A DNA stretch of 48,770 nucleotides from Clostridia bacterium (GTDB lineage Bacteria > Bacillota > Clostridia > Christensenellales > CAG-314), in contig JAFTHP010000047.1 in NCBI GenBank assembly GCA_017457305.1, positions 1 to 48,770 of the forward strand. Direction: 5' to 3'. Of the stretch, positions 4,828 to 27,349 are shown piece after piece (the stretch's first letter is position 1; every line of letters begins with the position of its first letter). A program made the position numbers and the translations under genes. The notes below the pieces were generated by a model. The model made no database searches and had not been told where the DNA came from. It was given only the letters and a program-made list of their open reading frames with translations.

Positions 4828-5902
4828 CAAATGTTCAATAACCTTCACAGGACTCAACATAAACCACCTATTAAACACTCTTGCAGCGCAAAACATAGCA
4901 GTTTTTGGCGTCAAACGCAACAAAAATAGCTGTACGATTTGTGTTTTGTCAATATCTGTTAGCAAGACTATTGATTTATTAAATAAAAAGTGTTATAATA
5001 TACAGAAGGTTTCCTATGGAGGCCTATTTGGTGCTGTAATTTTTGCTAAAAAGCATATTGCGCTGATGATTGCATTGTCAATTTTTGTGTTGGCGCTGTG
5101 CTTTACATCCAATATATGCCTAAAAGTGGAAGTTTGCGGCGACTTTTCGCTACAGCAAGTCAACGCCGTTTTGACGGAACTTGGCGTAGGTGTAGGAACA
5201 AAACTTTCCGCCATCAACAAGGATAGTGTAGAAAACTATCTTTGCAACAAATTGGGCGCATTGTATGCAACTGTCAACAACAAGTCTAGTGTGTTGTATG
5301 TTAGCGTATATCTGCCAAAAACTGTCGATACTCCCATTGACCTAAACAAAAAACGCAACATTGTTGCTCCTAGCCAAGGAATTGTACTTTCGGTAAGTTG
5401 TCAGCAGGGCACTCCGCTAGTAAAGGCTGGCGACAGTGTTGTCAAAGGCCAAGTACTAATTGAAGGCAGTAGGGTATTTGTAGACGGAACAAGTCAGCAT
5501 GTTTATGCCATTGGACAGGTTGTTTTGCAGTTATCCAGCACGGCATTTGCCCCATACACAGGCACAATGACAGTTACTCAACCAACCGGCAAGGTATACC
5601 ACAATACGGGTGTGTACTTGTTTGGCAAGCAGTACCAGCAACAACCGCCCTTTGATAATTACACAGTAAATAGCACAGTTACTGCGCTAAAACCGCTAAA
5701 TTTACTAATTAGCCACAACACCTACTATCAGTTGGCAACTGTAACGCAAAAGGCCACGTTAGAGCAATGCTTGCCACAACTCAAGCAACAAGCGGTACAG
5801 CAAGCCACACAAAAGTGCAGTTTTGTTGTGGAAGAAATTTTATACGAAATAACCAATCAGGGTGTAAAAGCCACTGTTTTGGGAACTATAACAATCAACT
5901 AA
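4820..5902 (+). CDS. yqfD: sporulation protein YqfD
   Basis: A 360-residue membrane-anchored sporulation protein, slightly shorter than the roughly 400 residues usual for the family. One N-terminal transmembrane helix (ALMIALSIFVLALCF, about residues 75-95) separates a small cytoplasmic region from a large outer domain rich in beta strands; NIVAPSQGIVLSV and AGDSVVKGQVLIEG resemble lipoyl/biotinyl-like hairpins of efflux adaptors, a known feature of the family. The start is ATG 4820 in ATGGCTAG overlapping the yqfC stop; an in-frame TTG at 4799 is less likely. It probably acts in the mother cell membrane during engulfment; the exact function is unknown. Confidence 0.87.
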   Translation: MASKCSITFTGLNINHLLNTLAAQNIAVFGVKRNKNSCTICVLSISVSKTIDLLNKKCYNIQKVSYGGLFGAVIFAKKHIALMIALSIFVLALCFTSNICLKVEVCGDFSLQQVNAVLTELGVGVGTKLSAINKDSVENYLCNKLGALYATVNNKSSVLYVSVYLPKTVDTPIDLNKKRNIVAPSQGIVLSVSCQQGTPLVKAGDSVVKGQVLIEGSRVFVDGTSQHVYAIGQVVLQLSSTAFAPYTGTMTVTQPTGKVYHNTGVYLFGKQYQQQPPFDNYTVNSTVTALKPLNLLISHNTYYQLATVTQKATLEQCLPQLKQQAVQQATQKCSFVVEEILYEITNQGVKATVLGTITIN

Positions 5903-10736: not shown

Positions 10737-12515
10737 ATGGTATTTGGCAAACACATAAATAAATATTACGTCAAGTACGGTCTTGTACTGTTGCTTGGTG
10801 TTATTGCGCTTATTGCCGTGGACTATTTCCAACTCAAAATTCCCGAGTTTTATCGTATGATAATCAATGGTATCAACGATGGAGTGGTAGATTACGAAGG
10901 TCAGCTTTTGACGTTTGATATGGATTTTGTTATCAACAAGATTTGTCTACCCATGTTCGTCGTTGCCGCTTGCATGATTGTTGGCAGATTTTTGTGGCGT
11001 ATTTGCTTCTTTGGTAGTGGTATCAAGGTAGAACGCGAGCTTCGTCGCAGTATGTTCAACCATTGCAAGGATTTGTCATTGCAGTTTTATTCCAATGAAA
11101 AAATCGGTAACTTGATGAGCTACTTCACCAACGATATCGAAACTGTACAAGATTGCTTTGGTAGTGGAATTTTGATGGCGGCAGATGCAATTGCCCTTGG
11201 CGGCATGGCATTGTACAAGATGTTCGCAATGAACAAGATGCTCACTTTGCTCAGTCTTATCCCAATGTTTTGTATGTTTTGGGTGGGCGTAATTGTAGGC
11301 AAGTATATGATGAGCAAATGGGAAACTCGTCAGCAAGCTTTCTCCGACCTGTCCGACTACGCACAAGAGTCTTTCAGCGGTATTTCCGTAGTAAAGGCAT
11401 TTGTCAAGGAGTTCAAGGAGTTGTGGGCTTTCCGCAGATTGAACAAACAAAACGAAAAAGCAAACGTTGCCTACACAAAGGCAAGCACCTTGCTTCACAT
11501 TTCCGTAACGTTGTTTGTAGAAAGCGTTATTTGCATTATCCTTGGCTACGGCGGATACCTTGTGTACAAAGATTCTAAGAGTTTCAACGCAGGACAACTG
11601 ATGGAGTTCATTGGCTACTTTAACTCAATCATTTGGCCAATTATGGCAATTACCGAGCTTATTGATATGGGTAGCCGTGGTAGAGCATCACTTAAGCGTA
11701 TTTCCAAGCTGTTGGATACCAAGCAGGATGTTGCCGATGATCCACACGCACAACCTATACAGGAAGTTAAAGGAACAATCACCTTCAACAACCTCACTTT
11801 CCGTTATCCACAAGCGGACTACGATAGCCTTAGCAACGTATCCTTTACAATCAATGCTGGCGAAAACGTTGGTATTGTTGGTAAAACAGGTAGCGGCAAA
11901 ACAACCATTGCCGATTTGATTTTGCGTTGCTACAACGTTGAACCGGGCAGTTTGTTTATCGACGGCAAGGACGTAAACGATATTACAATTCAATCCTTGC
12001 GTGACTACTGCGCTTACGTACCACAAGATAACTTCCTATTTTCCGATAGTATTTCCAACAATATCGCATTTGCTTCCAGCGGTGACGATATTGATGACGT
12101 AGTTAGATCAGCCAAACTTGCCGACGTACACGACAATATCAAGGATTTTGCGCTGGGATATCAAACGGTACTTGGCGAACGCGGTGTAACGGTATCTGGC
12201 GGCCAAAAGCAACGTATTTCCATTGCTCGTGCTTTGATGAAGGATGCTTCAATTCTCATCTTGGACGACTCCGTTTCCGCCGTTGATACCGACACCGAAC
12301 GTATCATTTTGAACAACCTAAAGCAAACCCGCGCTGGCAAAACAACAATTTTGATTGCCCACCGCGTTACAACCATCAAGGATTTGGACAAAATCATTTA
12401 CCTAGATAACGGTAAAGTACTTGCAGTTGGCACCCATCAAGAGTTGTTGGATAACTGCGAAGAGTACCAAAACATGGTTGAGTTGCAACGACTAGAGCAA
12501 GAGGAGGGTATGTAG
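10737..12515 (+). CDS. ABC exporter subunit, degenerate ATPase site (heterodimer partner 1)
   Basis: 592 residues: six-helix exporter domain (about 1-310) fused to an ATPase domain. Walker A GKTGSGKTT, signature VSGGQKQR, Walker B ILILDDSVSAVD and H-loop LIAHRVTTI are visible. The residue after the Walker B Asp is Asp instead of the catalytic Glu, as in one half of heterodimeric exporters such as B. subtilis YheI/YheH (BmrC/BmrD). The next gene encodes the partner with a normal Glu. Substrate unknown; drugs, lipids or peptides are all possible. ATG 10737 has GAGG six bases before it. The unit starts after a terminator-like hairpin. Confidence 0.93.
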   Translation: MVFGKHINKYYVKYGLVLLLGVIALIAVDYFQLKIPEFYRMIINGINDGVVDYEGQLLTFDMDFVINKICLPMFVVAACMIVGRFLWRICFFGSGIKVERELRRSMFNHCKDLSLQFYSNEKIGNLMSYFTNDIETVQDCFGSGILMAADAIALGGMALYKMFAMNKMLTLLSLIPMFCMFWVGVIVGKYMMSKWETRQQAFSDLSDYAQESFSGISVVKAFVKEFKELWAFRRLNKQNEKANVAYTKASTLLHISVTLFVESVICIILGYGGYLVYKDSKSFNAGQLMEFIGYFNSIIWPIMAITELIDMGSRGRASLKRISKLLDTKQDVADDPHAQPIQEVKGTITFNNLTFRYPQADYDSLSNVSFTINAGENVGIVGKTGSGKTTIADLILRCYNVEPGSLFIDGKDVNDITIQSLRDYCAYVPQDNFLFSDSISNNIAFASSGDDIDDVVRSAKLADVHDNIKDFALGYQTVLGERGVTVSGGQKQRISIARALMKDASILILDDSVSAVDTDTERIILNNLKQTRAGKTTILIAHRVTTIKDLDKIIYLDNGKVLAVGTHQELLDNCEEYQNMVELQRLEQEEGM

Positions 12516-12516
12516 T

Positions 12517-14421
12517 ATGAAAGAATATCTTCCATTGCTAATTGCTGGTGCTATCATTGGTACAGTATCGGCAATAATGATACTGGTTTACAGCCTTATC
12601 AAGGACAAGCGCGAAAGCATGGGCTTCGACCGCAAAATGAAGGATGGCGAACTGCTAAAACGCCTTTTGGTGTATGCAAAGCCATACTGGAAGAACTTTT
12701 TGTTGGTTGGCTTTGTAATGTTGCTGTCCATTTCCTACGATATAACAGCGCCCCTAATCATTTCGGATATTCAACTGCTTGTAAAGGGCAGTTTTGAAAT
12801 GAACGAGCTTTTGCTACGTGTATTGTTGTACGCAAGCATACTTATCGTTTCGTTGGCAAGCACATATACACAAGCAATAGTGTTGCAAAAAACTGGACAA
12901 AAGATTATTTCCAAATTGCGCGAAGATGCTTTTGTTCACGTAGAAAGCTTGTCCCACTCACAACTATCCAAGATTCCTGTAGGAAAACTGGTTACACGTG
13001 TTACTAACGACACAAACGCTATCAGCATGATGTTCACAGGTATGCTGGTAAACTTGGTAAAGAACTGCTTTGTTATCATTGGCGTGTTTGTAGCGATGCT
13101 ATGCCTAAACTACTTACTAACACTAATGATACTGTGCTTTGTACCATTTATTGTGTTATTTACCGTTATTTTCCGCAAGTTTAGCCGCAGGGCTTACCGC
13201 AGAGTTAAGGATGGCACAACCGATATCAACACCTTTTTGTCGGAAAACCTTTCCGGTATGAAGATTATCCAAGTTTTCAACCGCGAAGGTCGCAAATTTG
13301 ACGAATTTGATGCCAAAAACAAAAAACTTTACAATGCACAAAGAAGTCAAATTTTTGTATTTGGTATTTTCCGCCCAATTGTATATATGTTGTACATCAC
13401 TTCGGTACTTTGTTTGTTCTTCTTGGGCAGCAAGGGCTATGTGGACAACATCAACTTCTTGGGACAATCCATTGGTAGCGACACAATTGTTGCTTTCTAT
13501 ATGTTCATTTCCAAGTTCTTCAACCCAATTCAAAGCTTGGCAGAACAGTTCCACCGTTTGCAATCGGCATTTGCATCCGCCGAAAAGATTTTCACTATCA
13601 TGGATATGCAGCCAGAAGTAGTGGATGAACCCGATGCTATCGACCTAGAAGAAGTTCATGGCGAAATTGAGTTCAAAAACGTTTGGTTTGCCTATAACGA
13701 AGGGGAATGGGTACTCAAGGACGTGTCCTTCCACATCAATGCAAAGGATACAGTTGCCTTTGTTGGTGCAACAGGTAGCGGCAAAACAACAATTTTGTCA
13801 TTGCTGTGTCGTAACTACGATATCCAAAAGGGCGAAATTTTGCTTGATGGTGTAAATATCAAAAAGATCAAGATATCTTCACTGCGCAAACACTTTGGTC
13901 AAATGTTGCAGGACGTGTTTATCTTTGCAGGAACAATCCGTAGTAACATTGTTCTAAAGGAAGATAGCTTTACCGAAGAACAAATTTTGGAAGCTTGCCG
14001 CTACGTCAATGCGGATAAGTTTATCAACAAGCTAGGCAAAGGTTTGGACGAAGAAGTAAGGGAAAGGGGAAATAACTTCTCCGCTGGTCAACGTCAGTTG
14101 TTGTCCTTTGCTCGTACCATTATCCACCGCCCAGAAGTCATGATTTTGGACGAAGCTACCGCCAATATCGACACCGAAACAGAAGTGTTGATTCAAGACA
14201 GCCTAACCAAGATGATGAACATTGGCACAATGCTTATTGTTGCACACCGTTTGTCAACAATTCAACACGCCGACAACATCATTGTTTTGGACCACGGCCA
14301 AATCATTGAACAGGGCAACCATCATCAACTTCTCAAGCAAAAGGGCAGATACTACGAGTTGTATCAATTGCAATTTAGCAAGGACCAACTCCGTCAAAAA
14401 TCCGCACAGAAAGGTATCTAA
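12517..14421 (+). CDS. ABC exporter subunit, canonical ATPase site (heterodimer partner 2)
   Basis: 634 residues, starting one base after the stop of the partner gene. An extra N-terminal helix (LPLLIAGAIIGTVSAIMILVYSL) precedes the six-helix exporter domain, followed by the ATPase domain with Walker A GATGSGKTT, signature FSAGQRQL, Walker B VMILDEATANID (normal Glu) and H-loop LIVAHRLSTI. The signature SAGQ instead of SGGQ would face the partner's Asp-type Walker B, so one composite site is degenerate and the other canonical, as expected for a heterodimer. A strong terminator follows at 14451. Confidence 0.93.
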   Translation: MKEYLPLLIAGAIIGTVSAIMILVYSLIKDKRESMGFDRKMKDGELLKRLLVYAKPYWKNFLLVGFVMLLSISYDITAPLIISDIQLLVKGSFEMNELLLRVLLYASILIVSLASTYTQAIVLQKTGQKIISKLREDAFVHVESLSHSQLSKIPVGKLVTRVTNDTNAISMMFTGMLVNLVKNCFVIIGVFVAMLCLNYLLTLMILCFVPFIVLFTVIFRKFSRRAYRRVKDGTTDINTFLSENLSGMKIIQVFNREGRKFDEFDAKNKKLYNAQRSQIFVFGIFRPIVYMLYITSVLCLFFLGSKGYVDNINFLGQSIGSDTIVAFYMFISKFFNPIQSLAEQFHRLQSAFASAEKIFTIMDMQPEVVDEPDAIDLEEVHGEIEFKNVWFAYNEGEWVLKDVSFHINAKDTVAFVGATGSGKTTILSLLCRNYDIQKGEILLDGVNIKKIKISSLRKHFGQMLQDVFIFAGTIRSNIVLKEDSFTEEQILEACRYVNADKFINKLGKGLDEEVRERGNNFSAGQRQLLSFARTIIHRPEVMILDEATANIDTETEVLIQDSLTKMMNIGTMLIVAHRLSTIQHADNIIVLDHGQIIEQGNHHQLLKQKGRYYELYQLQFSKDQLRQKSAQKGI

Positions 14422-14450
14422 ACCCCTTTACTTAAACAATTAAACAAACA

Positions 14451-14486
14451 AAAAGAGCAAGAAAAACAACTTCTTGCTCTTTTATT
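14451..14486 (+). terminator. intrinsic terminator after the ABC exporter
   Basis: A 13-base perfect stem AAAAGAGCAAGAA/TTCTTGCTCTTTT with a 7-base loop, followed by T. Confidence 0.85.
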
Positions 14487-14585
14487 TTTGCCATCTTTGA
14501 TTCTAGTCACAACAGCTAGTGTATTGTTTAAAAATCATTTTTGTCTAATTGTAAAAATACTGTTGATAGTATGAGTTTTGTGTGT

Positions 14586-16427
14586 TTATTTTCTAGGTGG
14601 AAGCATTGTTCGCATGCTGTTGAGTATTGCAACAACGCACACACCAACGTCCGCCAAAATGGCAATTACCAAGCCAAACGCAATGGTGTCTAGTAGGCCA
14701 ATGGCGGAAAGGATAAGCACGGCAAACTTAATTACAAGGCTTATCACAATGTTTTGTTTTACAACCTTCAGTGTCTTTTTGGAGATATTCACAGCGGTAG
14801 ATAGTGCAGTGGGATTGTCTTGCATCAGTACGATATCCGCTGTTTGTATGGCAATATCACTACCCATCGCCCCCATAGCAATGCCAACGTCTGCCGTTGC
14901 CAAAACGGGCGCATCGTTTATGCCATCTCCAACAAATGCTACCTTGTTACCTTGTGTTTTCAAGTTTTGAACAATGGTTGCTTTTTCTTGTGGAAGTAGT
15001 TGACTATACGTTTTTCCAATGCCAAGTTGAGTGGCAATTTCCTTTGCAATGTGGTCGTTGTCACCTGTGAGCATTGCCGTGTTTGCACCCATTTTGTGCA
15101 GTTTGGCTATAGCAGTAATGCTGTCCTCTTTCAACTGGTCGGCCAGTTCAACGTATCCTACAAACTTGCCGTTCTCTGCCACGTAAACTACTGTTTTGCT
15201 GGAGCTTTGTTCAAATTCCACTTGATTTTCCGTCATCAAGCTAGCATTTCCGCACAAAATTGTGATATCTGCTGTTTTTGCCACAATACCTTTGCCAGCA
15301 ATTTCTTGAACGGTTGCCGAGCATTGTGGGGCGGTGCTAGCCAAGATACATTGAGCGATAGGGTGCGTGCTGTACTGTTCTGCAATGGCTGCCAGTTTTA
15401 GCACTTGTTGTTTGTTTTCTTGTGGGTAAACGTTGACAATATCAAACTTTCCCTTTGTTAGTGTTCCAGTTTTGTCAAAGGCAAAAAGGTTGATTTTACT
15501 GAGCATTTCCAAGTAGTTACTACCCTTTATTAGAATTCCCTTTTTGCTACAAGCGGCAATTCCGCCAAAGAATCCTAAAGGAATAGAAATAACCAATGCA
15601 CAAGGGCAGGATACAAACAAGAACATCATTGCACGTTTTATCCAAACTGCCCAATTTTGCAAAAACAATGGTGGAACAATGGCGATTAGCACAGCAAGGA
15701 TAACAACGACAGGTGTGTAGTAGCGGCTAAACTTTGTAATAAATTTTTCCGCTGGTGCCTTGTTGAAGGTGGCGTTTTCTACCATATCCAGTATTTGTGC
15801 CACGGTGCAGTTGTCGTAGTCGCTGGTGGATTGTACAGTTAACGTGCCATCTAGGCATATGCAACCGCTGATAACCTTATCCCCCTTTTGTACAAAAACA
15901 GGCACGCTTTCCCCTGTGATAGTGGAAGTATCAATGGTGCAACTACCTTCAACAACAATGCCGTCAAGGGCAATTCTTTCCCCTGGTTTAACAAGGAAGT
16001 TTTGACCAATTTCAATTTCTGCCGGATGAACTTCAACCTGTTCGCCGTCACGTACAATTGTGGCAGTTTCTGGACGAATGCTGACTAGGGCTGCAATGCT
16101 ATTTCTGCTTTTCCCAAGGGCATATCTTTGAAAAGCTTCCCCAATTTGATACAAAAGCATAACGGCAACAGCTTCGATAAACTCTTCAATGAAAAATGCG
16201 CCAACAGTGGCAATTGTCATCAGCAAATTTTCGCCAAATACCTGTCCGTGGATAATATCGTAGAAAGCATCCAACACAATATCGTAGGCTACAACGATAT
16301 ATGCCAGTACAAACAGTGTAATGGATACCCAAGGTGGCAAAACAAAAACGTGTTCACAAAGCAATGCAACGGCACAAATAAGTAGGCAAATACAAATTCG
16401 CCAAAAAACGATTTTATTCTTACTCAT
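14586..16427 (-). CDS. cadA: Zn2+/Cd2+/Pb2+-type P1B ATPase
   Basis: 613 residues. Membrane helices start at once (no N-terminal metal-binding domain), then the actuator TGES, the metal site SCPCALVIS, phosphorylation motif AFDKTGTLTKG, STHPIAQ and VGDGINDAPVLATADVGIAMG, with MGSDIAIQTADIVLM near the last helices. CPC followed by ALVISIP and the late MGSD motif are typical of the Zn/Cd/Pb class rather than the copper class. The metal-binding domain is a separate protein encoded 2 bases upstream in the operon, and a CadC-type sensor is the first gene. The ribosome site (TAGG) is weak, which suggests coupling to the previous gene. Confidence 0.92.
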   Translation of the reverse strand: MSKNKIVFWRICICLLICAVALLCEHVFVLPPWVSITLFVLAYIVVAYDIVLDAFYDIIHGQVFGENLLMTIATVGAFFIEEFIEAVAVMLLYQIGEAFQRYALGKSRNSIAALVSIRPETATIVRDGEQVEVHPAEIEIGQNFLVKPGERIALDGIVVEGSCTIDTSTITGESVPVFVQKGDKVISGCICLDGTLTVQSTSDYDNCTVAQILDMVENATFNKAPAEKFITKFSRYYTPVVVILAVLIAIVPPLFLQNWAVWIKRAMMFLFVSCPCALVISIPLGFFGGIAACSKKGILIKGSNYLEMLSKINLFAFDKTGTLTKGKFDIVNVYPQENKQQVLKLAAIAEQYSTHPIAQCILASTAPQCSATVQEIAGKGIVAKTADITILCGNASLMTENQVEFEQSSSKTVVYVAENGKFVGYVELADQLKEDSITAIAKLHKMGANTAMLTGDNDHIAKEIATQLGIGKTYSQLLPQEKATIVQNLKTQGNKVAFVGDGINDAPVLATADVGIAMGAMGSDIAIQTADIVLMQDNPTALSTAVNISKKTLKVVKQNIVISLVIKFAVLILSAIGLLDTIAFGLVIAILADVGVCVVAILNSMRTMLPPRK

Positions 16428-16429
16428 AG

Positions 16430-16651
16430 CTATTTGCCTAAAACGTATGTATCACGATGGATAATTCTGCAAATCTCGTTTATTTCCTTCAATGTTTCTT
16501 CAAAGGTTTCTTCTGGGGTTTCCAAAATCATCTTTTGCGACAAAAAACTTACACTTACTTTGTCCACTTGTGGGATCTTGCTAATAAATCTTTCCATCCT
16601 AGCTGCGCAGTTAGCACAGTCCAAGTTAACCATTTTAAGAACGTATCTCAT
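16430..16651 (-). CDS. free HMA-domain metal-binding protein
   Basis: 73 residues with one HMA fold: VNLDCANCAARMERFI holds the CxxC metal site, followed by the VDKVSVSFLSQKMILE strands. It is encoded between the ArsR-type sensor and the ATPase, whose stop and start codons are each within a few bases. The ATPase lacks the N-terminal HMA that most relatives carry, so this protein probably supplies it in trans, as chaperone or regulatory domain. The alternative is that an ancestral fused gene was split by a new stop and start. Confidence 0.85.
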   Translation of the reverse strand: MRYVLKMVNLDCANCAARMERFISKIPQVDKVSVSFLSQKMILETPEETFEETLKEINEICRIIHRDTYVLGK

Positions 16652-16657
16652 ATATTT

Positions 16658-17014
16658 CTACTCCTTTACGTGTTCAATAGCGATATTGATAATTTGCAAA
16701 ACGTGGTCGTCCGCCAAGCTGTAGTAAACTTCCTTTCCGCTGCGTCTGTTTTTGACAAGCTTGCTTTGGCGCAGTATTCTAAGTTGGTGGGATACTGCCG
16801 ATTTGTTCATATTCAAAACGGAGCAAATATCACAAACGCACAGTTCTGCTTGTGTTAGGGAAGATAAAATTCTAATCCTAGTGGAGTCGCCAAAAATTTT
16901 GAACAGTTCGGCAACGTCAAAAAGTATTTCTTCGTTTTCCAAGTGATCCAACACGTTATGTACAACATCGTTGTGAACGTGGGTTTCTTGACAGCACATA
17001 TCTTTTTGTGTCAT
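16658..17014 (-). CDS. cadC: ArsR/SmtB-family metal-sensing repressor (CadC-like)
   Basis: 118 residues: winged-helix core with LFKIFGDSTRIRILSSL, the ELCVCDIC metal motif in the alpha-3 helix (CxC as in CadC) and the recognition helix NMNKSAVSHQLRIL. An N-terminal CC pair and His residues (DMCCQETHVH) add likely ligands, as in Cd/Pb/Zn sensors. AGGAGA lies 5 bases before the ATG. It is first in the operon and its own promoter/start region contains the palindrome at 17028-17053, so metal-relieved autorepression is inferred. C-terminal HVLQIINIAIEHVKE could form the SmtB-type alpha-5 helix. Confidence 0.92.
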   Translation of the reverse strand: MTQKDMCCQETHVHNDVVHNVLDHLENEEILFDVAELFKIFGDSTRIRILSSLTQAELCVCDICSVLNMNKSAVSHQLRILRQSKLVKNRRSGKEVYYSLADDHVLQIINIAIEHVKE

Positions 17015-17187: not shown

Positions 17188-17745
17188 ATGTTTTGTTGTA
17201 GACCTACTTGTCCATACAAAAGGGAAGGAAATATCATCTATGTTGTAGAAACTGGTCCACGTGGTCCTATGGGACCAATTGGTCCACAAGGTCCAAGCGG
17301 CCCGCAAGGTCCAGTAGGGCCTGCTGGTGGTGGAATTAACAGCTATGGCGGATTGTATTCGGTTTTGCAAACTACACGAACAATAACGCCAACCTACAGC
17401 ACGCTAACGTTAGAAAGCACAATGCCATCCAATAACGTAACCTACGGTACAAATACAATCACCGTGGTTAACAGTGGCACCTACGAAGTAAACTATGGAC
17501 TTACCGCCGACACTTCCGAAACTACTGTAGTAACAACAGCAGTAGCGGTCAACGGAGCAACGGTAGGTGGTGGAACAACGGGTACTAGTGGTCAAGCTGG
17601 ACAAAATATCCAACAAACTGGTACAGTATTGCTTACTCTTGTCGCTGGCGACGTTTTGACGTTGCAAGCAAATAGTGTGTTGGCAACCACGCTAACTCCA
17701 CAAGGGGGAGTAGTGGGCTATTTGACCATCAAGCAACTAGGCTAA
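17188..17745 (+). CDS. collagen-like protein, probable spore surface (BclA-like)
   Basis: 185 residues in three parts: a Cys-rich N-terminus (MFCCRPTCPYKREG), eight uninterrupted Gly-Pro-X triplets (from GPRGPM to GPVGPA) and a C-terminal domain of about 130 residues full of Thr, Val and Gly that looks like the TNF/C1q-like jelly roll of exosporium glycoproteins. Such proteins trimerise and form the hair-like nap of spores. No signal peptide is seen, which fits spore assembly in the mother-cell cytoplasm. AGGAGG stands 8-9 bases before ATG. I see no clear SigA promoter, but a 0A-like box lies about 75 bases upstream. Phage tail-fibre origin is an alternative; there are no phage genes nearby. 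Confidence 0.8.
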   Translation: MFCCRPTCPYKREGNIIYVVETGPRGPMGPIGPQGPSGPQGPVGPAGGGINSYGGLYSVLQTTRTITPTYSTLTLESTMPSNNVTYGTNTITVVNSGTYEVNYGLTADTSETTVVTTAVAVNGATVGGGTTGTSGQAGQNIQQTGTVLLTLVAGDVLTLQANSVLATTLTPQGGVVGYLTIKQLG

Positions 17746-18389: not shown

Positions 18390-18451
18390 ATTATCTAATC
18401 GTGCAAGCAATTGTTTGCACAAGCAGTACTTGTACACAAAAAGGAGCATTT

Positions 18452-20566
18452 ATGAAAAATTTTGTTTTGATGCTAGCCGGCGAGTGGATTTTGAAGCACA
18501 GAAGTGAAGACAAAATGCCTGTAACCAAAGTGCGCGAATTTATGATGCAAAAATTTGGTCCACAAGTTTCTTTCACTCGCGAAACATATTCTGTATTGGA
18601 GTTTTCCTTCAATCAAGATATCGACAAGGAATTGATCCACAGGGAAGTTGGCGGTTTTTTGGGCAAAAACTACAACGACTACAACAACGGTTACCTAAGT
18701 GTTTACGAAGAAAAGGGCTCTCAATCCACAAGCACACCTACAGTTCCCGTTACTCCACAGCCCATTCCACAAGCGCCAACTGGTCAAATGGGCAATCCGC
18801 AGGAAATTGAACAGTTCTTGCGTTCTATTGGCATGGATACTAGCGGTGTAAGGTACGGCTCCACTCAACAAACTTCCCCAACAGTTAACCCAACAGTAGG
18901 CGGTAACGAAGCAACTCAATCGGAAATTGCCATTGACAACGTTATGAAGGAAATTGATGGGCTAATTTCTGGTGCAGAATTTAAGTCATTGTGCCGTGAA
19001 ATTCGTCAACTTGCTGGTATGGTAAAACAAAACAAGAGCTATGATGTATTTACCAACCAACGTTATTTGTTTGCCATCAACGATGGTTGTTGTTTTGACG
19101 ACTATATCAAGTTGTTCCGCAAATTGCTAACAGTTTTGGGTATCTACAATGCTGCAAAGTACGTTTTCAACGAAAAACTTATGCCAGTAAAGCCCAACCA
19201 AGAAGATCCACGTATGGTAATGCTCGACAAGGTTCGTTCCGCCCCAGAAAAAGCCATCATCTGCATTGATATTAGCGACTGGATGAACGAAGTCAAGTCT
19301 TCCGACTTCAAGGATTTCCTTCGTGTATTGGCATCGGAACGCGAAAAGTCCATCATCATTTTCCGTATCCCATTTGTAGACAAGGAAGTTATGGACAACA
19401 TTGGCCATCAACTAAATGACACAATGTTTATTCGTAGTGTATCCTTCCCACCTTTCACTAACGAAGAACTAGGCAAAATTGCCGATATCGAGATTTCCAG
19501 TTTTGGCTTTAGCATGGACGCAAAGGCCTGGAACGGTTTCTACGCACGTATGCGCCAAGAAAGTAGCGATGGACGTTTCTATGGCACCGACACAGTCAAG
19601 AAGGTAGTGCGCGAATTGTTGTACTACAAGCTTCGTGCTAGCGCACAAAACGGCGAAAACGACAAGATTATCCGTGAACAAGATGCCGAAATGCTTTGCT
19701 CATCCGATTTTGTCGACAACCTAACCGGCATGGAAATGTTGGAACGCATGGTTGGTACGGAAAACATCCGCGACAGAATTTTGGAAATCATCTCTCAAAT
19801 TGAACTTGCAAGACAAAACCCCGAAATGGGCTCACCTTGCTTGCACATGCGCTTTGTTGGTAACCCTGGTACAGGTAAAACAACCGTTGCCCGTATCATT
19901 GGTAAAATTCTCAAGGAAAAGGGCATTTTGCGTATTGGCGAATTCCACGAACATGCAGGACGTGACTTCTGTGGTAGATACATTGGTGAAACCGCACCAA
20001 AAACTCTCAACATTTGCCGTTCTGCATATGGTTCGGTGTTGTTTATCGACGAAGCTTACTCATTATATCACGGCGAAGACGACACCAAGGACTTTGGTCG
20101 TGAAGCATTGGATACACTTATTGCTGAAATGGAAAACCATCGTAGCGACTTTGTTGTTATCATGGCAGGATACACCAACGATATGGATCGTTTGATGAAG
20201 GGTAATGCTGGTTTGCTATCTCGTATGCCCTACACGTTGGAATTCCCCAACTTCACAAAGGACCAACTATTCCAAATTTTTGAAAAACTTTGCAATGGTA
20301 AGATTGAACACGATGATGAAATCTTGGTAGCTGCAAAGCAGTACATTGACAAACTTGATGATGACTACGTTGCAAGCAAGGAGTTTAGTAATGCTCGTTT
20401 TGTTCGTAACTTGTACGAACGTGTTTGTGCCAAGGCATCAATGCGTTGTCAACTTGCAGGAAGTACCAAGTTGAAGCTACTCAAGGAAGACTTCGACCGT
20501 GCTATTGCCGACAAGGAATTTGGCAATATCAAGAACAAGACCACAAAGATTAGCTTTGGTCAATAA
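18452..20566 (+). CDS. AAA+ ATPase of the CbbX/SpoVK type with a degenerate first module
   Basis: 704 residues. An N-terminal domain (about 1-85) of unknown type is followed by a Pro/Gln/Thr-rich linker (about 90-155). The next part (about 160-410) looks like an AAA module that lost its Walker A: KAIICIDISDW and KSIIIFRIPFVDKE could be the Walker B and sensor strands, followed by lid-like helices. The second module (about 440-690) is intact: Walker A GNPGTGKTT (470-478), SVLFIDEAYSL Walker B (528-538), sensor-1 region VVIMAGYTNDM and sensor-2/lid FSNARFVRNLYERV, as in CbbX and SpoVK. ATG 18452 has AAGGAG six bases upstream. It is followed 15 bases later by a DUF218 gene. Confidence 0.85.
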   Translation: MKNFVLMLAGEWILKHRSEDKMPVTKVREFMMQKFGPQVSFTRETYSVLEFSFNQDIDKELIHREVGGFLGKNYNDYNNGYLSVYEEKGSQSTSTPTVPVTPQPIPQAPTGQMGNPQEIEQFLRSIGMDTSGVRYGSTQQTSPTVNPTVGGNEATQSEIAIDNVMKEIDGLISGAEFKSLCREIRQLAGMVKQNKSYDVFTNQRYLFAINDGCCFDDYIKLFRKLLTVLGIYNAAKYVFNEKLMPVKPNQEDPRMVMLDKVRSAPEKAIICIDISDWMNEVKSSDFKDFLRVLASEREKSIIIFRIPFVDKEVMDNIGHQLNDTMFIRSVSFPPFTNEELGKIADIEISSFGFSMDAKAWNGFYARMRQESSDGRFYGTDTVKKVVRELLYYKLRASAQNGENDKIIREQDAEMLCSSDFVDNLTGMEMLERMVGTENIRDRILEIISQIELARQNPEMGSPCLHMRFVGNPGTGKTTVARIIGKILKEKGILRIGEFHEHAGRDFCGRYIGETAPKTLNICRSAYGSVLFIDEAYSLYHGEDDTKDFGREALDTLIAEMENHRSDFVVIMAGYTNDMDRLMKGNAGLLSRMPYTLEFPNFTKDQLFQIFEKLCNGKIEHDDEILVAAKQYIDKLDDDYVASKEFSNARFVRNLYERVCAKASMRCQLAGSTKLKLLKEDFDRAIADKEFGNIKNKTTKISFGQ

Positions 20567-20581: not shown

Positions 20582-21001
20582 ATGCTAGTTGCTGTAATTT
20601 TGGGAAACAGACTAAATGATGACGGAAGTATGTCGCAAATTTTGCTTGGTCGTCTGCAAATGGCATTGCGCATCAATTGTGCTTTTAGCCCAGATAAAAT
20701 TATTTTGTCCGGTGGTGTAGCCAACGAAAAGGCAGGCACAAGCGAAGCACAGGTTATGTACGACTATTTGGTGCAAAATGAAATTGACGAAAACAAGCTC
20801 ATTTTGGAAGAAAATTCCCTATCCACAAAGCAAAACGCACAGTTTTCAGTACCCATTGCAGTAGCGCAGGGTGCCACGGAGATAATGGTGTGTTCATCTA
20901 ACTATCACATTTCTCGCAAGATTCTCAACCCAATAAAACTATTTGAAAAAGAATTGGCAAAGTACCCAAACATCAAATTATCTGCTTTTTGCCAAGACTA
21001 A
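20582..21001 (+). CDS. DUF218/YdcF-family protein
   Basis: 139 residues matching the ElyC/SanA/YdcF (DUF218) fold: N-terminal AVILGNRL, KIILSGGVANEKAGTSEAQVM with the conserved SGG and SEA, ILEENSLSTKQNAQFS (the E..S..T..N motif) and VCSSNYHISR. The role is unclear; relatives affect envelope properties. It lacks the membrane helix of ElyC/SanA. AGGAG precedes ATG, 15 bases after the AAA+ gene, so the two probably form one transcript ended by the terminator at 21015. Confidence 0.88.
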   Translation: MLVAVILGNRLNDDGSMSQILLGRLQMALRINCAFSPDKIILSGGVANEKAGTSEAQVMYDYLVQNEIDENKLILEENSLSTKQNAQFSVPIAVAQGATEIMVCSSNYHISRKILNPIKLFEKELAKYPNIKLSAFCQD

Positions 21002-21014
21002 TTGCTAAATTCAA

Positions 21015-21053
21015 AAAGAGAACCCTTCGGATTTTTCCGTTTGTTCTCTTTTT
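21015..21053 (+). terminator. intrinsic terminator after the DUF218 gene
   Basis: AAAGAGAAC...GTTCTCTTT stem with a 19-base partly paired loop, then T-run. Confidence 0.7.
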
Positions 21054-21075
21054 TGTTTCAATTATTAAGGATACT

Positions 21076-22578
21076 ATGAAAAAGTTTGTTATTTATTTAC
21101 TGTGCATTGTGTGCCTTTTGTCCTTGTTGCTGACTTCTTGTCAACACACCCATGAACTAGCACAAATTGAATATTTGGCACCCACAACAACCACACAAGG
21201 CAATATTGCACATTACAAGTGCCAAAGTTGTGGTGCATTGTTCCAAGATAGCGATGGCGCTAAGCCCCTAACCGATAAGGAGGTTGTGTTGCCTATTTTG
21301 GAACAAGAAATTGACATAATGCCCTACATTGACAGTTTGATAGCGGCCACAACCGACTCCGTTCCGGCGTGGAATCAGGAAGGTTACAAGGGGCGCTGGA
21401 ACTACATTGACGGCGTTTTTCTCAATTCCATTGTCAACTTATACTACCAACTAAGTTCGTCCAACAGCGACAAAGCTAACCAGTACAAAAACTTTTTGAC
21501 TAGATACGTCAACTACTATTTGGATTCTAGCGGTAACTTTGTAAACCTTAGAGATTCATCTAAGTCAGGCTATACAAGTGGGGAGTTGGATACAGTGTGT
21601 CAATCCAAGGTGTTGTTTGATATGTACCAGCTAACACAGGACGTGAGATATGTAAACGCTATCAACTACACCAAGCAACAGTTGGATGCACAACCTACTG
21701 TTAGTGGCTCCAACGGCAACTATTGGCACAAGACAAGCTACGCTAACCAAATTTGGCTTGATGGAATGTATATGTATGGACCATTTTTGGCAAGATATGC
21801 TGTTTCCAAACAGGATAGCACCTTGCTTACAAAACTGGTGGAGCAGTACAAGTATATTCGCCAAACAATGTTCAACGAACAAAAGCAACTGTATTATCAC
21901 GCCTACGACAGCACAAAAACTATCTTTTGGGCAAATGAACAAACTGGTTGCAGTCCATCATTTTGGTTGCGTTCTATGGGCTGGTACATAGTGTCACTAA
22001 CGGATGTAATCGAGTACTACCCTCAAGGGGAAGAACGCAACTATTTGGTTGCTTTGCTCAAAGAAGCTTTGGATGGTGTTTTGCTATATTTAGATACCGA
22101 AAGCAATATGTTCTATCAAGTGGTGGATGGTGTAGTTGACGGTAAACCCATTTCGCAAAAGGTATCTGCTAACTATTTAGAAAAGCTCAAGAACAAGGCG
22201 TATATGCAAAATGGCAAATACGTAGACGCAACAATAACCAACTACTTGGAGTCATCTGGCAGTTCAATGATAGCCTACAGTTTGATGAAGGCAGCTGCAA
22301 ACAACTACATTGATAGCAGCTATATGGCAATCGGTCGCAACATTTTTGAAGGCATCTACAATCACTCATTTGATAGCAGCACAAATACCCTAAACGATAT
22401 TTGTATAACTGCAGGTCTAGGACCGGATAACAAACCATATCGCGATGGAACTGTCAGCTACTACCTAGCTGAACCAGTCGGCGCCAACGATGCCAAGGGT
22501 ATTGGACCATTTATAATGGCTTATTTGCAGTACAAGTTTGGCTCAAGTGTGGTGCAAATCCCCACCCCAAGTTTGTAA
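21076..22578 (+). CDS. lipoprotein glycosyl hydrolase, family GH105/GH88 (unsaturated uronyl hydrolase)
   Basis: 500 residues. A signal peptide ends in lipobox LLTSC (Cys22), so it should be an anchored outer-surface lipoprotein. Residues about 25-75 form a small domain with CQSCGALFQDSDG, a CxxC module common in Firmicutes surface proteins. The rest is an (alpha/alpha)6 barrel of the YteR/YesR type: WNYIDGVFLNSI, ELDTVCQSKVLF, QIWLDGMYMYGPFLARYA, WLRSMGWYIVSL and SGSSMIAYSLMKAA. Family enzymes hydrate the unsaturated sugar left by pectate or rhamnogalacturonan lyases. ATG 21076 follows the terminator and has AAGGA; the longer frame from 20989 crosses the hairpin. No other pectin genes are nearby. 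Confidence 0.87.
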   Translation: MKKFVIYLLCIVCLLSLLLTSCQHTHELAQIEYLAPTTTTQGNIAHYKCQSCGALFQDSDGAKPLTDKEVVLPILEQEIDIMPYIDSLIAATTDSVPAWNQEGYKGRWNYIDGVFLNSIVNLYYQLSSSNSDKANQYKNFLTRYVNYYLDSSGNFVNLRDSSKSGYTSGELDTVCQSKVLFDMYQLTQDVRYVNAINYTKQQLDAQPTVSGSNGNYWHKTSYANQIWLDGMYMYGPFLARYAVSKQDSTLLTKLVEQYKYIRQTMFNEQKQLYYHAYDSTKTIFWANEQTGCSPSFWLRSMGWYIVSLTDVIEYYPQGEERNYLVALLKEALDGVLLYLDTESNMFYQVVDGVVDGKPISQKVSANYLEKLKNKAYMQNGKYVDATITNYLESSGSSMIAYSLMKAAANNYIDSSYMAIGRNIFEGIYNHSFDSSTNTLNDICITAGLGPDNKPYRDGTVSYYLAEPVGANDAKGIGPFIMAYLQYKFGSSVVQIPTPSL

Positions 22579-24541: not shown

Positions 24542-24901
24542 ATGAAACAATACTATTTGGAAAGATTCAACTGGATTTTTAAGTACACAAGCAACAATTT
24601 CTTCTATTGTTTGCTCAAGACATTGTGCATTATCATCGGGGCACCAATCTACGCCGTTACGTTTATTGGCGAAATGATTCTTACCTTTGTGTACTGTTTG
24701 TTTTCTTGGATTCCAGTACTCAACATTGTGGTTATGGTAATTTGCAAGGCAATTATTTTCTTATTGGACAAGCCTTTTTACATTTGCATCCTGCCAGATA
24801 TCAAAAAATACTTGGCGGCCGTAACCAATGAACCTATCTACGAAGTGGTGGAAGAAGAGGAATTCCAAGCAGAAACTCCTGCTCAAGATGAAGATCAATA
24901 A
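24542..24901 (+). CDS. small membrane protein of unknown function
   Basis: 119 residues, not recognised. Two or three hydrophobic segments (about 25-50, 52-75 and possibly part of 75-92 with IIFLLDKPFYICILP) are followed by an acidic, soluble tail (EPIYEVVEEEEFQAE...DEDQ). No signal peptidase site or catalytic motif is seen. AGGTGG lies 4-5 bases before the ATG and a good SigA-type promoter stands upstream, with a terminator directly after, so it is a single-gene unit that is probably expressed during growth. Confidence 0.75.
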   Translation: MKQYYLERFNWIFKYTSNNFFYCLLKTLCIIIGAPIYAVTFIGEMILTFVYCLFSWIPVLNIVVMVICKAIIFLLDKPFYICILPDIKKYLAAVTNEPIYEVVEEEEFQAETPAQDEDQ

Positions 24902-24954: not shown

Positions 24955-25058
24955 ACCTTTTTTTTGACCAAAATAGACATTTTTAGAGCAAAATTCCCAA
25001 TTTTTCCCTGCGCTTTTTGTGCTACAATGTAGAAAAACAAAAACAGGAGGAACAATCA

Positions 25059-25784
25059 ATGACGATTGGTTTAATAGGACAACAAGGGCTAAGCGAGCGT
25101 CTAAAGGATAACAGCCAAATAACCATTTTGTTCGATGTAGATGGGGATCAGGCAAGGGAGTGTTTGGACAAATATCATCCTGATGTGGTAATAACTGAGC
25201 TACTGATGAGTGGGGAAGATGGTTTTGCTCTGTTGGAGCAGTATCCAAATCAAAAATTTATTGTGGCAACGGAGCTAAAGAGTGAAATTTTTGTTATCAA
25301 AGCGGTGGAACTTGGGGCGCAGTACTATTTGGTAAAGCCACTTGTGATGAGTGTACTTGAACAACGCATTGCCAACGTTTGCCAAGGAGAAAGGCTGGGA
25401 GGCAAGACGATGCGCAAGAAAAGTGTATCCGAAACTACCCTTGACGAACGCATCAGCAACATATTTGTCAGTGTGGGAATACCTGCTCATATCAAGGGAT
25501 ACCAGTTTTTGAGAGAAGGCATCAAGCTAGCCGTAGATAATCCACAAATTATCAATTCCATTACCAAAAGTTTGTACCCCACAATAGCGCAACACTTCAA
25601 CACAACCGCTAGCAAGGTGGAACGTGCTATTCGTCATGCAATAGAAGTGGCTTGGAACAGGGGTAAGATTGAAAATATCAACAGCATTTTCGGCGTAAGG
25701 GTATATACCTCTTCGGAAAAACCCACCAATGGTGAGTTTATTGCTCTTTTGGCGGATAAAATGCTACTGGAATGCACATACTAA
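25059..25784 (+). CDS. spo0A: Spo0A-like sporulation regulator with a degenerate receiver domain
   Basis: 241 residues. The C-terminal half (about 130-241) is nearly the classical Spo0A DNA-binding domain: VGIPAHIKGYQFLREGI, the recognition helix NTTASKVERAIRHAIEVAW, and FGVRVYTSSEKPTNGEFIALLADK. The N-terminal receiver keeps the fold and conserved Thr71 and Lys93 but lacks key residues: the Asp-Asp pocket of strand 1 is Gly-Gln (LIGQQG), and the phosphoacceptor Asp is Glu47 (VVITELLMSGEDG). A normal phosphorelay switch is therefore unlikely. It is not next to spoIVB, the usual neighbour, so a second, canonical Spo0A may exist elsewhere. ATG 25059 has AGGAGG before it; the frame from 25017 is longer but unsupported. 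Confidence 0.88.
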   Translation: MTIGLIGQQGLSERLKDNSQITILFDVDGDQARECLDKYHPDVVITELLMSGEDGFALLEQYPNQKFIVATELKSEIFVIKAVELGAQYYLVKPLVMSVLEQRIANVCQGERLGGKTMRKKSVSETTLDERISNIFVSVGIPAHIKGYQFLREGIKLAVDNPQIINSITKSLYPTIAQHFNTTASKVERAIRHAIEVAWNRGKIENINSIFGVRVYTSSEKPTNGEFIALLADKMLLECTY

Positions 25785-25841: not shown

Positions 25842-25870
25842 TTGCGCAAAACAAAAATATGTGTTACAAT
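25842..25870 (+). promoter_or_regulatory. SigA-type promoter of the TetR gene
   Basis: TTGCGC, 17-base spacer, TACAAT. Confidence 0.72.
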
Positions 25871-25895: not shown

Positions 25896-26501
25896 ATGCA
25901 GTACCTCAAAAAAGAAATTAGAGAAAAAATATTGGCAGCCGCAGTAGAAGAGTTCAAAGAACACGGATATTCCGATGCATCAGTTAGAAATATAGCAAAC
26001 AATGCCGAAATTTCACTTGGCAACATTTATCGTTACTACACCAACAAGGAAGCACTCTATTTTGCAGTAATCAATCCTTTTATGGAAAGTATCAAGAACT
26101 ATGTAGAACATGGTTTCAGCTTCGAAGGCAAAACTATGAAGCAAGTTTCCGAAGTATTGGTAGACTTCTTGATGGAATACAGTGATGAACTACTTATCAT
26201 CCGTAAGGGTAACACAGTTCACTACGAAACCTTTATTGCCTACATTGTAAAGGTTATCTCTAACAAGATTCACGAAATGTTGGAAAAGGTTTTCCCCGAA
26301 ATCAACGAAAAGATTCAAAACAGCGAATTCTACGATGCAGTAGCAGAAGGATTCCTAACAGCATTGTTCAAGGTTTTGAAAAATGGCGATTCAGCAGAAG
26401 TGCAAGAACGCAAAACTCGCGAAATCATCACTTTCTACTTCGGTCACATGAAGGACAGATTCTATCACTTCGATGTGGAAGACGACCAAATCCTTGCCTA
26501 A
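25896..26501 (+). CDS. TetR-family transcriptional regulator
   Basis: 201 residues with the TetR helix-turn-helix at the N-terminus: REKILAAAVEEFKEHGYSDASVRNIANNAEISLGNIYRYYTNKEALYFAV pattern, seen as EEFKEHGY, VRNIANNAEISLGNIYRYY and NKEALY. The C-terminal ligand domain is unique and its ligand unknown. The gene is alone between promoter and terminator, with no efflux or catabolic gene beside it, so its target cannot be inferred from context. AAAGGAG precedes ATG 25896. Confidence 0.92.
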   Translation: MQYLKKEIREKILAAAVEEFKEHGYSDASVRNIANNAEISLGNIYRYYTNKEALYFAVINPFMESIKNYVEHGFSFEGKTMKQVSEVLVDFLMEYSDELLIIRKGNTVHYETFIAYIVKVISNKIHEMLEKVFPEINEKIQNSEFYDAVAEGFLTALFKVLKNGDSAEVQERKTREIITFYFGHMKDRFYHFDVEDDQILA

Positions 26502-26716: not shown

Positions 26717-27349
26717 ATGCCAGTAAACAATTTTGATGGCAACAACTGCAGCGAAAAGGTATGCATTCAGGGTAAAAAGGTGTTCGATGCTTGTATGAAG
26801 CAGGTCACACTTCAACAAATCACACTTAACGTAACGGACGTTACACCAGATAACCCCGAAGTACCCCTTCGCTTTGTCAGCGCACGTAGCACAACAACGG
26901 TAGGGGAAGTGGAAAACCTGGTTGTAGAAAGGTTAAAGGAACGCCCCAAGTATGGTAGAGTTCAAGGAGATGTGCTAATTCCTGTACAAGTAACGTACAT
27001 AGATAACAACAACGTAGAAGGCGTTGGCACGGGCACAGTAACAGTTCCATTTGACGTTGTAATGTATTTGCCTGAACCTTCTATTATTCCATACAAGGTG
27101 GAAGCTAGCATATCCGCAGTAGCACCAGACGGAACTTACAGCACGACGCAAGTAATTGATGATACCACTTACTATGTATTTGTTATCAACTGTTGCGCAA
27201 CCATTATCTTAAAGATAACCATGGAAGTAGAGCTAATTGTTCCAACCTACGGTTATGCGGTAATTCCACCTTGCCAAGAGTATACCGAAGAAGTGTGTAG
27301 CGGATACTTCGAACTGCCACTTTACCCAGGATGTCGTACAAATAACTAG
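26717..27349 (+). CDS. conserved Cys-containing protein, probable spore-layer protein
   Basis: 210 residues, no named family recalled. The sequence is beta-rich with no signal peptide or membrane helix; Cys residues cluster near both ends (NNCSEKVC, CMKQ; NCCATI; PPCQEYTEEVC, PGC). The middle reads like a repeated Ig-like or coat-type sandwich (RVQGDVLIPVQVTYID, TVTVPFDVVMYLPEPSIIPYKVE). A SigK-like promoter element 28 bases upstream and a strong AGGAGG site suggest late mother-cell expression. Cys-rich, secretion-signal-free proteins are typical of the coat or exosporium. This assignment is inference from context. Confidence 0.55.
   Translation: MPVNNFDGNNCSEKVCIQGKKVFDACMKQVTLQQITLNVTDVTPDNPEVPLRFVSARSTTTVGEVENLVVERLKERPKYGRVQGDVLIPVQVTYIDNNNVEGVGTGTVTVPFDVVMYLPEPSIIPYKVEASISAVAPDGTYSTTQVIDDTTYYVFVINCCATIILKITMEVELIVPTYGYAVIPPCQEYTEEVCSGYFELPLYPGCRTNN

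Follow-up and report, generated by a model that had tools for sequence, protein, structure and literature searches.

A Spo0A-family protein with a conserved pseudo-receiver in a genus of the Christensenellales

The window, that is, the whole stretch of 48,770 nucleotides analysed here, carries at 25059-25784 (+ strand) a spo0A-like gene whose 241-aa product joins a near-canonical Spo0A DNA-binding domain to a receiver that, judging from its sequence, has lost the residues needed for the usual phosphorylation chemistry. Comparison of genomes indicates that this pseudo-receiver form of Spo0A, the master switch of sporulation, is fixed in a genus of uncultured gut bacteria and has been reached repeatedly in an order. 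In the explanation that we prefer, with modest confidence, a Spo0A receiver has turned into a pseudo-receiver, the protein is active without phosphorylation, and its output is set by its amount through autoregulation.

Identity of the protein and its rebuilt receiver pocket

The gene, recognised by its open reading frame, Pfam, TIGR02875 and comparison with 1lq1, has an AGGAGG ribosome-binding site (25046-25051, +) directly before its ATG start. In Pfam its product scores 137 bits for Spo0A_C (cut-off 25) and 43.5 bits for Response_reg (cut-off 30.2), the latter weak but over threshold, while the NCBI equivalog model TIGR02875 (spore_0_A) gives 210.3 bits against a cut-off of 200, which places the gene in the Spo0A sequence family. 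The description of the DNA-binding domain as almost canonical, made in the earlier note, is borne out by this Spo0A_C score and by a gapless alignment of the C-terminal half with the solved Spo0A domain 1lq1 at 57% identity; the domain itself (25452-25760, +; Pfam, 1lq1, Foldseek) matches that structure with a TMt of 0.92 in the predicted model. The AlphaFold2 model (mean pLDDT 87) keeps the (beta-alpha)5 fold with all five beta-alpha units, alpha1 being short, and its receiver matches the Spo0A receiver structure with a TMt of 0.82 (Foldseek). The window's genome is a 1.51 Mb draft of 54 contigs, 93% complete, and among named relatives Candidatus Fimimonas merdipullorum is the nearest; Fimimonas corresponds to GTDB genus CAG-1435 of family CAG-314, order Christensenellales (PMC8035907).

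Residues are numbered against a B. subtilis Spo0A sequence whose C-terminal half is consistent with PDB 1lq1. In an alignment with this sequence and more than 100 relatives, the acid pair Asp10-Asp11 is replaced by Gly7-Gln8 (25077-25082, +) and the phosphoacceptor Asp56 by Glu47 (codon GAG, 25197-25199, +), and no displaced Asp lies near either place. The earlier note had thus read these residues correctly, and the phosphoacceptor and acid pair of a phosphorylation-switched Spo0A are both missing. The switch residue Thr71, Tyr90 and the conserved pocket lysine Lys93 (25335-25337, +) are kept, and the T+1 position, where relatives with Asp56 mostly have Ala or Ser, is Glu72 (25269-25274, +, together with Thr71). 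With three of five diagnostic residues changed and the fold kept in the predicted model, the receiver falls into the pseudo-receiver class. It also shows every feature that PMC12632262 reports for such receivers: Glu occupies D, K+2 carries one of Leu/Val/Ile, Pro is missing from D+4 and T+1 is neither Ala nor Gly. As far as the alignment tells, the pocket has taken on a new, fixed pattern (Gly, Gln, Glu, Ser/Thr-Glu, Tyr, Lys) and is conserved rather than decayed.

Fixation in the genus, recurrence in the order and paralogues

The genus set comprises 25 genomes, 21 of them (the window's included) with a full-length Spo0A. Gly at the first acid position, Glu at position 56, Glu at T+1 and the pocket Lys and Tyr recur in 21/21 of these proteins; the second acid position is Gln in 20/21 and Glu in 1/21. 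The codons of the phosphoacceptor-position Glu are mixed (GAA in 11, GAG in 10). Although the window's genome is in draft form (54 contigs), a sequencing or assembly error was rejected and has a negligible chance of explaining the altered residues, because Gly and Glu recur throughout the genus, in 20 other genomes, with different and independent synonymous codons. The median dN/dS, a rough figure with synonymous sites near saturation, is about 0.08 for the receiver and about 0.02 for the DNA-binding domain, and the receiver is clearly under purifying selection. Three further genus members (G001, G003 and G008; 91-96% complete) have no full-length Spo0A match; spoIIE-like, spoIIGA, spoIVA and spoIVB are present in them.

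The genus receiver has about 102 residues versus 112, being about 10 shorter, and the shortening is mostly a loss of 6 residues from the alpha1-beta2 stretch, seen only in the genus and the closest family members. This shorter stretch, the invariant Glu72 and a pocket that has been fixed in a new state instead of decaying would also suit a switch whose default is either off or on and in which a small molecule or a protein, by binding in the pocket or on the alpha1 side, alters dimerisation; both direct and indirect regulation of pseudo-receivers are discussed in PMC12632262. We consider such a switch rather unlikely here, as no candidate ligand emerged, the only candidate conserved partner gene is the TetR-family regulator described below, and the other neighbours conserved in most genus members, a hypothetical gene at 24542-24901 and that at 26717-27349, encode proteins that match no known family.

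Beyond the genus, 121 Spo0A proteins were placed in a tree from which the state columns were left out, a quick tree with many long branches. On it, position 56 has changed at least seven times and the acid pair at least eight times. Six of the seven lineages changed at position 56 have Glu and one has Gln, whereas Glu makes up 26% of substitutions among aspartate-less receivers generally (PMC4395418); the binomial P of 0.0017 for this excess is only rough, the baseline being a count of sequences and not of events. In the family, change began with the acid pair (GQ/D, EQ/D, GN/D) and Asp became Glu afterwards, and Glu56 also occurs in a genome of another family of the order (G045, ES/E).

The same tree separates two paralogue groups (support 99), one with the spoIVB-adjacent copies (G037, G053, G057) and the other with the window gene. 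In G038, G043, G044 and G045 the spoIVB-adjacent copy consists of the DNA-binding domain only (115-133 aa), and G034 has a second Spo0A copy with a remnant receiver. The sole other Spo0A_C protein of the window's genome is encoded by a 172-aa open reading frame (G000:C1:1490-2008, - strand, locus L129; Spo0A_C match at G000:C1:1574-1879); it has no receiver, its domain is diverged (54 bits), and its like is found in most genus members. Since a similar DNA-binding-domain-only gene adjoins spoIVB in several order members, this protein may be a remnant of an ancestral spoIVB-linked spo0A.

It is also the one point in favour of the idea that the window's Spo0A competes with a normal, phosphorylatable Spo0A, as the earlier note proposed, or modulates it. 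That idea is largely refuted and we regard it as very improbable: the second protein lacks a receiver and has a diverged DNA-binding domain, neither the window's genome nor any of the other 20 genus members having one yielded a second full-length Spo0A, and the recN-spoIVB locus of the window's genome carries no spo0A, so that a second canonical copy beside spoIVB was rejected.

Kinases, promoter and neighbouring genes

Seven HATPase_c matches were found in the window's genome, of which two are histidine kinases, each adjoining an intact OmpR-type response regulator. The remaining five were not counted as histidine kinases: long frames of 659-709 aa hold three of them, and the other two are in short frames (142 and 183 aa) within a hydrogenase/Nuo-like cluster. 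The genome has three receivers in all, the third being the window's Spo0A, and hence no Spo0F-like protein. A check for orphan kinases and Spo0F, as proposed in the earlier note, thus returned only two paired kinases and neither an unpaired kinase nor a Spo0F-like receiver in this 93% complete genome, so that the orphan sporulation kinase or Spo0F of a phosphorylation-switched Spo0A is absent from it. Together with the pocket residues, this supports the view that normal phosphorylation has been lost. Most genus members likewise have 2 HisKA matches and 3 or 4 receivers, while others carry 5-6 HisKA matches and as many as 12 receivers; in G045 (1.3 Mb, 94% complete) HisKA gave no match. The median number of HisKA matches is 2 in genomes without Asp56 versus 4 in those with it, the former belonging mostly to one genus. 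A simple link between kinase number and loss of Asp56 was rejected on this ground and because DD/D persists in G027 and G035, of the same family, each with two HisKA matches and three receivers; kinase scarcity alone therefore does not explain the change.

Upstream of the gene, a putative extended -10 element (TACAAT, 25023-25028, +; TGCTACAAT) is conserved in the genus. In a de novo count over the 300 nt upstream of spo0A, GTCGAAA was the most enriched and TGTCGAA the third most enriched of all 7-mers; TGTCGAA is the known 0A-box core. It occurs in 18/21 genus spo0A promoters (1.7 expected), starting 93-106 nt before the start codon in 17/21; where a -10 was scored among these 17, the box nearly always lies 59-60 nt upstream of it. 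Order members with Asp56 have a box within 320 nt upstream of spo0A in 43/81 cases, against 2.5 expected. In the genus, no 0A-box enrichment was found upstream of spoIIE or spoIIGA, and boxes upstream of spoIIAA are only weakly enriched (6 versus 2). Because the 0A box upstream of spo0A is conserved, the DNA-binding specificity seems to be kept and the gene is probably autoregulated through the predicted box in its own promoter. Counting against this, the window's own promoter has a degenerate box only: at the place of the TTCGACA of most genus members it reads TTTGACC (24963-24969, +), 60 nt upstream of the -10.

A TetR-family regulator (25896-26501, +) lies beside spo0A and has its own putative -10 TACAAT at 25865-25870. 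Such a gene adjoins spo0A in 21/21 genus members, downstream in 20 and in the opposite direction in G017, and also in G025, G026, G031, G033 and G034, all with an altered acid pair; it is absent beside spo0A in G030 (GQ/D) and in the family's DD/D, SD/Q and QE/D members. Its family is uncertain, the best NCBIfam scores being 40-47 bits (RefZ 42), far below the cut-offs, and inspection of the spo0A and tetR promoters by eye for a shared operator gave nothing clear beyond promoter elements. Gene neighbourhood makes it a candidate input that possibly feeds a ligand signal into spo0A.

Other genes nearby have features of their own. The 210-aa protein encoded after the TetR gene (26717-27349, +) is 76-82% identical in the genus members compared, gave no Pfam or NCBIfam match and has a secreted or coat-type look. 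A short collagen-like Gly-X-Y protein (17188-17745, +; no NCBIfam match) is reminiscent of the exosporium BclA type, and a YqfD-like sporulation protein (4847-5902, +; 118 bits, below the cut-off of 256.7) is followed by a PhoH-like gene. At 18401-20566 (+) a 721-aa protein ends in a SpoVK/CbbX-type AAA ATPase domain, and predicted lipoproteins whose signal peptide is followed by short Cys-X-X-Cys modules (HYKCQSCGALF type) are encoded at 20989-22578 (+) and, at locus L129, at 12496-16736 (+).

The earlier note had offered constitutive activity, control by amount and control by a ligand as possibilities; control by amount appears the best supported of its options, because both the 0A box in the gene's own promoter and the TetR neighbour are conserved. 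In the mechanism that we prefer, Glu47 and the kept Thr/Ser, Tyr and Lys would hold the receiver in an active-like state, the protein would bind 0A boxes without phosphorylation and so be constitutively active, and its output would be set by how much of it is made, through the predicted 0A box in its own promoter. The TetR-family neighbour might be a further input and could replace a kinase as the sensor. In B. subtilis Spo0A, the Asp-to-Glu change alone gives no constitutive activity, according to a passage of PMC4395418 that cites Green 1991, and other changes in the pocket would therefore have to contribute.

Sporulation genes and relation to known systems

Genes of the sporulation programme are largely retained in the genus: spoIIE-like in 25/25 (below the curated cut-off), spoIIGA in 24/25, spoIVA in 24/25 and spoIVB in 25/25. 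A spoIIAA-like gene is present in 22/25 and was not found in the window's genome, which is not taken as a loss because that genome is a draft. Genes for alpha/beta-type SASPs were found in 0/37 family genomes by a search that was positive in B. subtilis and in seven order members with Asp56. The family thus lacks them, yet most of its members keep spoIVA and spoIVB (and spoIIGA, tested in the genus). Since SASPs can be lost (PMC3533761), their absence is no proof of non-sporulation; it does make true, classical resistant spores doubtful in this lineage. The earlier note had seen a departure from the phosphorelay that defines sporulation entry, which needs two qualifications: clostridia have no classical phosphorelay in any case, their Spo0A being phosphorylated directly (PMC6136694, PMC3533761), and whether the lineage makes true spores is doubtful.

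These observations bear on a further possibility, that sporulation is decaying and that Spo0A no longer starts it, has lost phosphorylation control and survives by regulating metabolic or vegetative genes. The missing SASP genes, the genome size of 1.5 Mb and the three genus members without a full-length Spo0A match despite 91-96% completeness would fit; SpoMAG calls most Christensenellales MAGs non-sporulating (PMC12536801), and non-sporulating bacteria with Spo0A are known (PMC3533761). The retention of spoIIE-like, spoIIGA, spoIVA and spoIVB across nearly the whole genus and a receiver conserved in its new state rather than degraded speak against it, and we give it only a small chance. Returning to a Spo0A active without phosphorylation, we tentatively suggest, as a broader picture that may well not hold, a kinase-free Spo0A circuit, convergent elsewhere in the Christensenellales, that is always competent, dosage-controlled and autoregulated and takes its input from a TetR-type ligand sensor. 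It would drive what remains of a polar-division and engulfment programme, one that stops short of a SASP-packed resistant spore.

The presence of spo0A serves as a marker of spore formers; the present case cautions that a gut MAG with spo0A need not come from a spore former under kinase control. Galperin et al. describe Spo0A phosphorylation as the key sporulation switch in bacilli and clostridia (PMC3533761). If the explanation given here is true, that switch can be decoupled from two-component signalling, and the family offers natural intermediates, with the acid pair lost first and Asp changed to Glu later, for studying how a receiver becomes a pseudo-receiver. The limited open-access literature searched held no prior report of a Spo0A D56E, a second Spo0A or a pseudo-receiver Spo0A; of two papers on pseudo-receivers, neither deals with a natural Spo0A, which is only a mutant example in PMC4395418 and is unmentioned in PMC12632262.

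The window's protein resembles canonical Spo0A of B. subtilis and clostridia (TIGR02875) in its domain order, its DNA-binding domain, the 0A box in its own promoter and its single full-length chromosomal copy. It differs in that it cannot, by its residues, use aspartyl phosphorylation, in a receiver about 10 residues shorter, in a gene that is not beside spoIVB and in the lack of an unpaired kinase or Spo0F-like receiver in the window's genome. This last trait recalls Epulopiscium, in which no homologues of the known clostridial Spo0A kinases were found and offspring formation is thought to be hard-wired; unlike the window's lineage, Epulopiscium keeps both the phosphoacceptor residues and SASP genes (PMC3416734). 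With aspartate-less or pseudo-receivers such as ChxR, HP1043, RitR, GlnR and FrzS, the protein shares a replaced phosphoacceptor (by Glu, as in ChxR), an altered acid pair, kept Thr, Tyr and Lys and changed T+1 and D+4 positions, whereas the output domain is here that of Spo0A, Spo0A_C.
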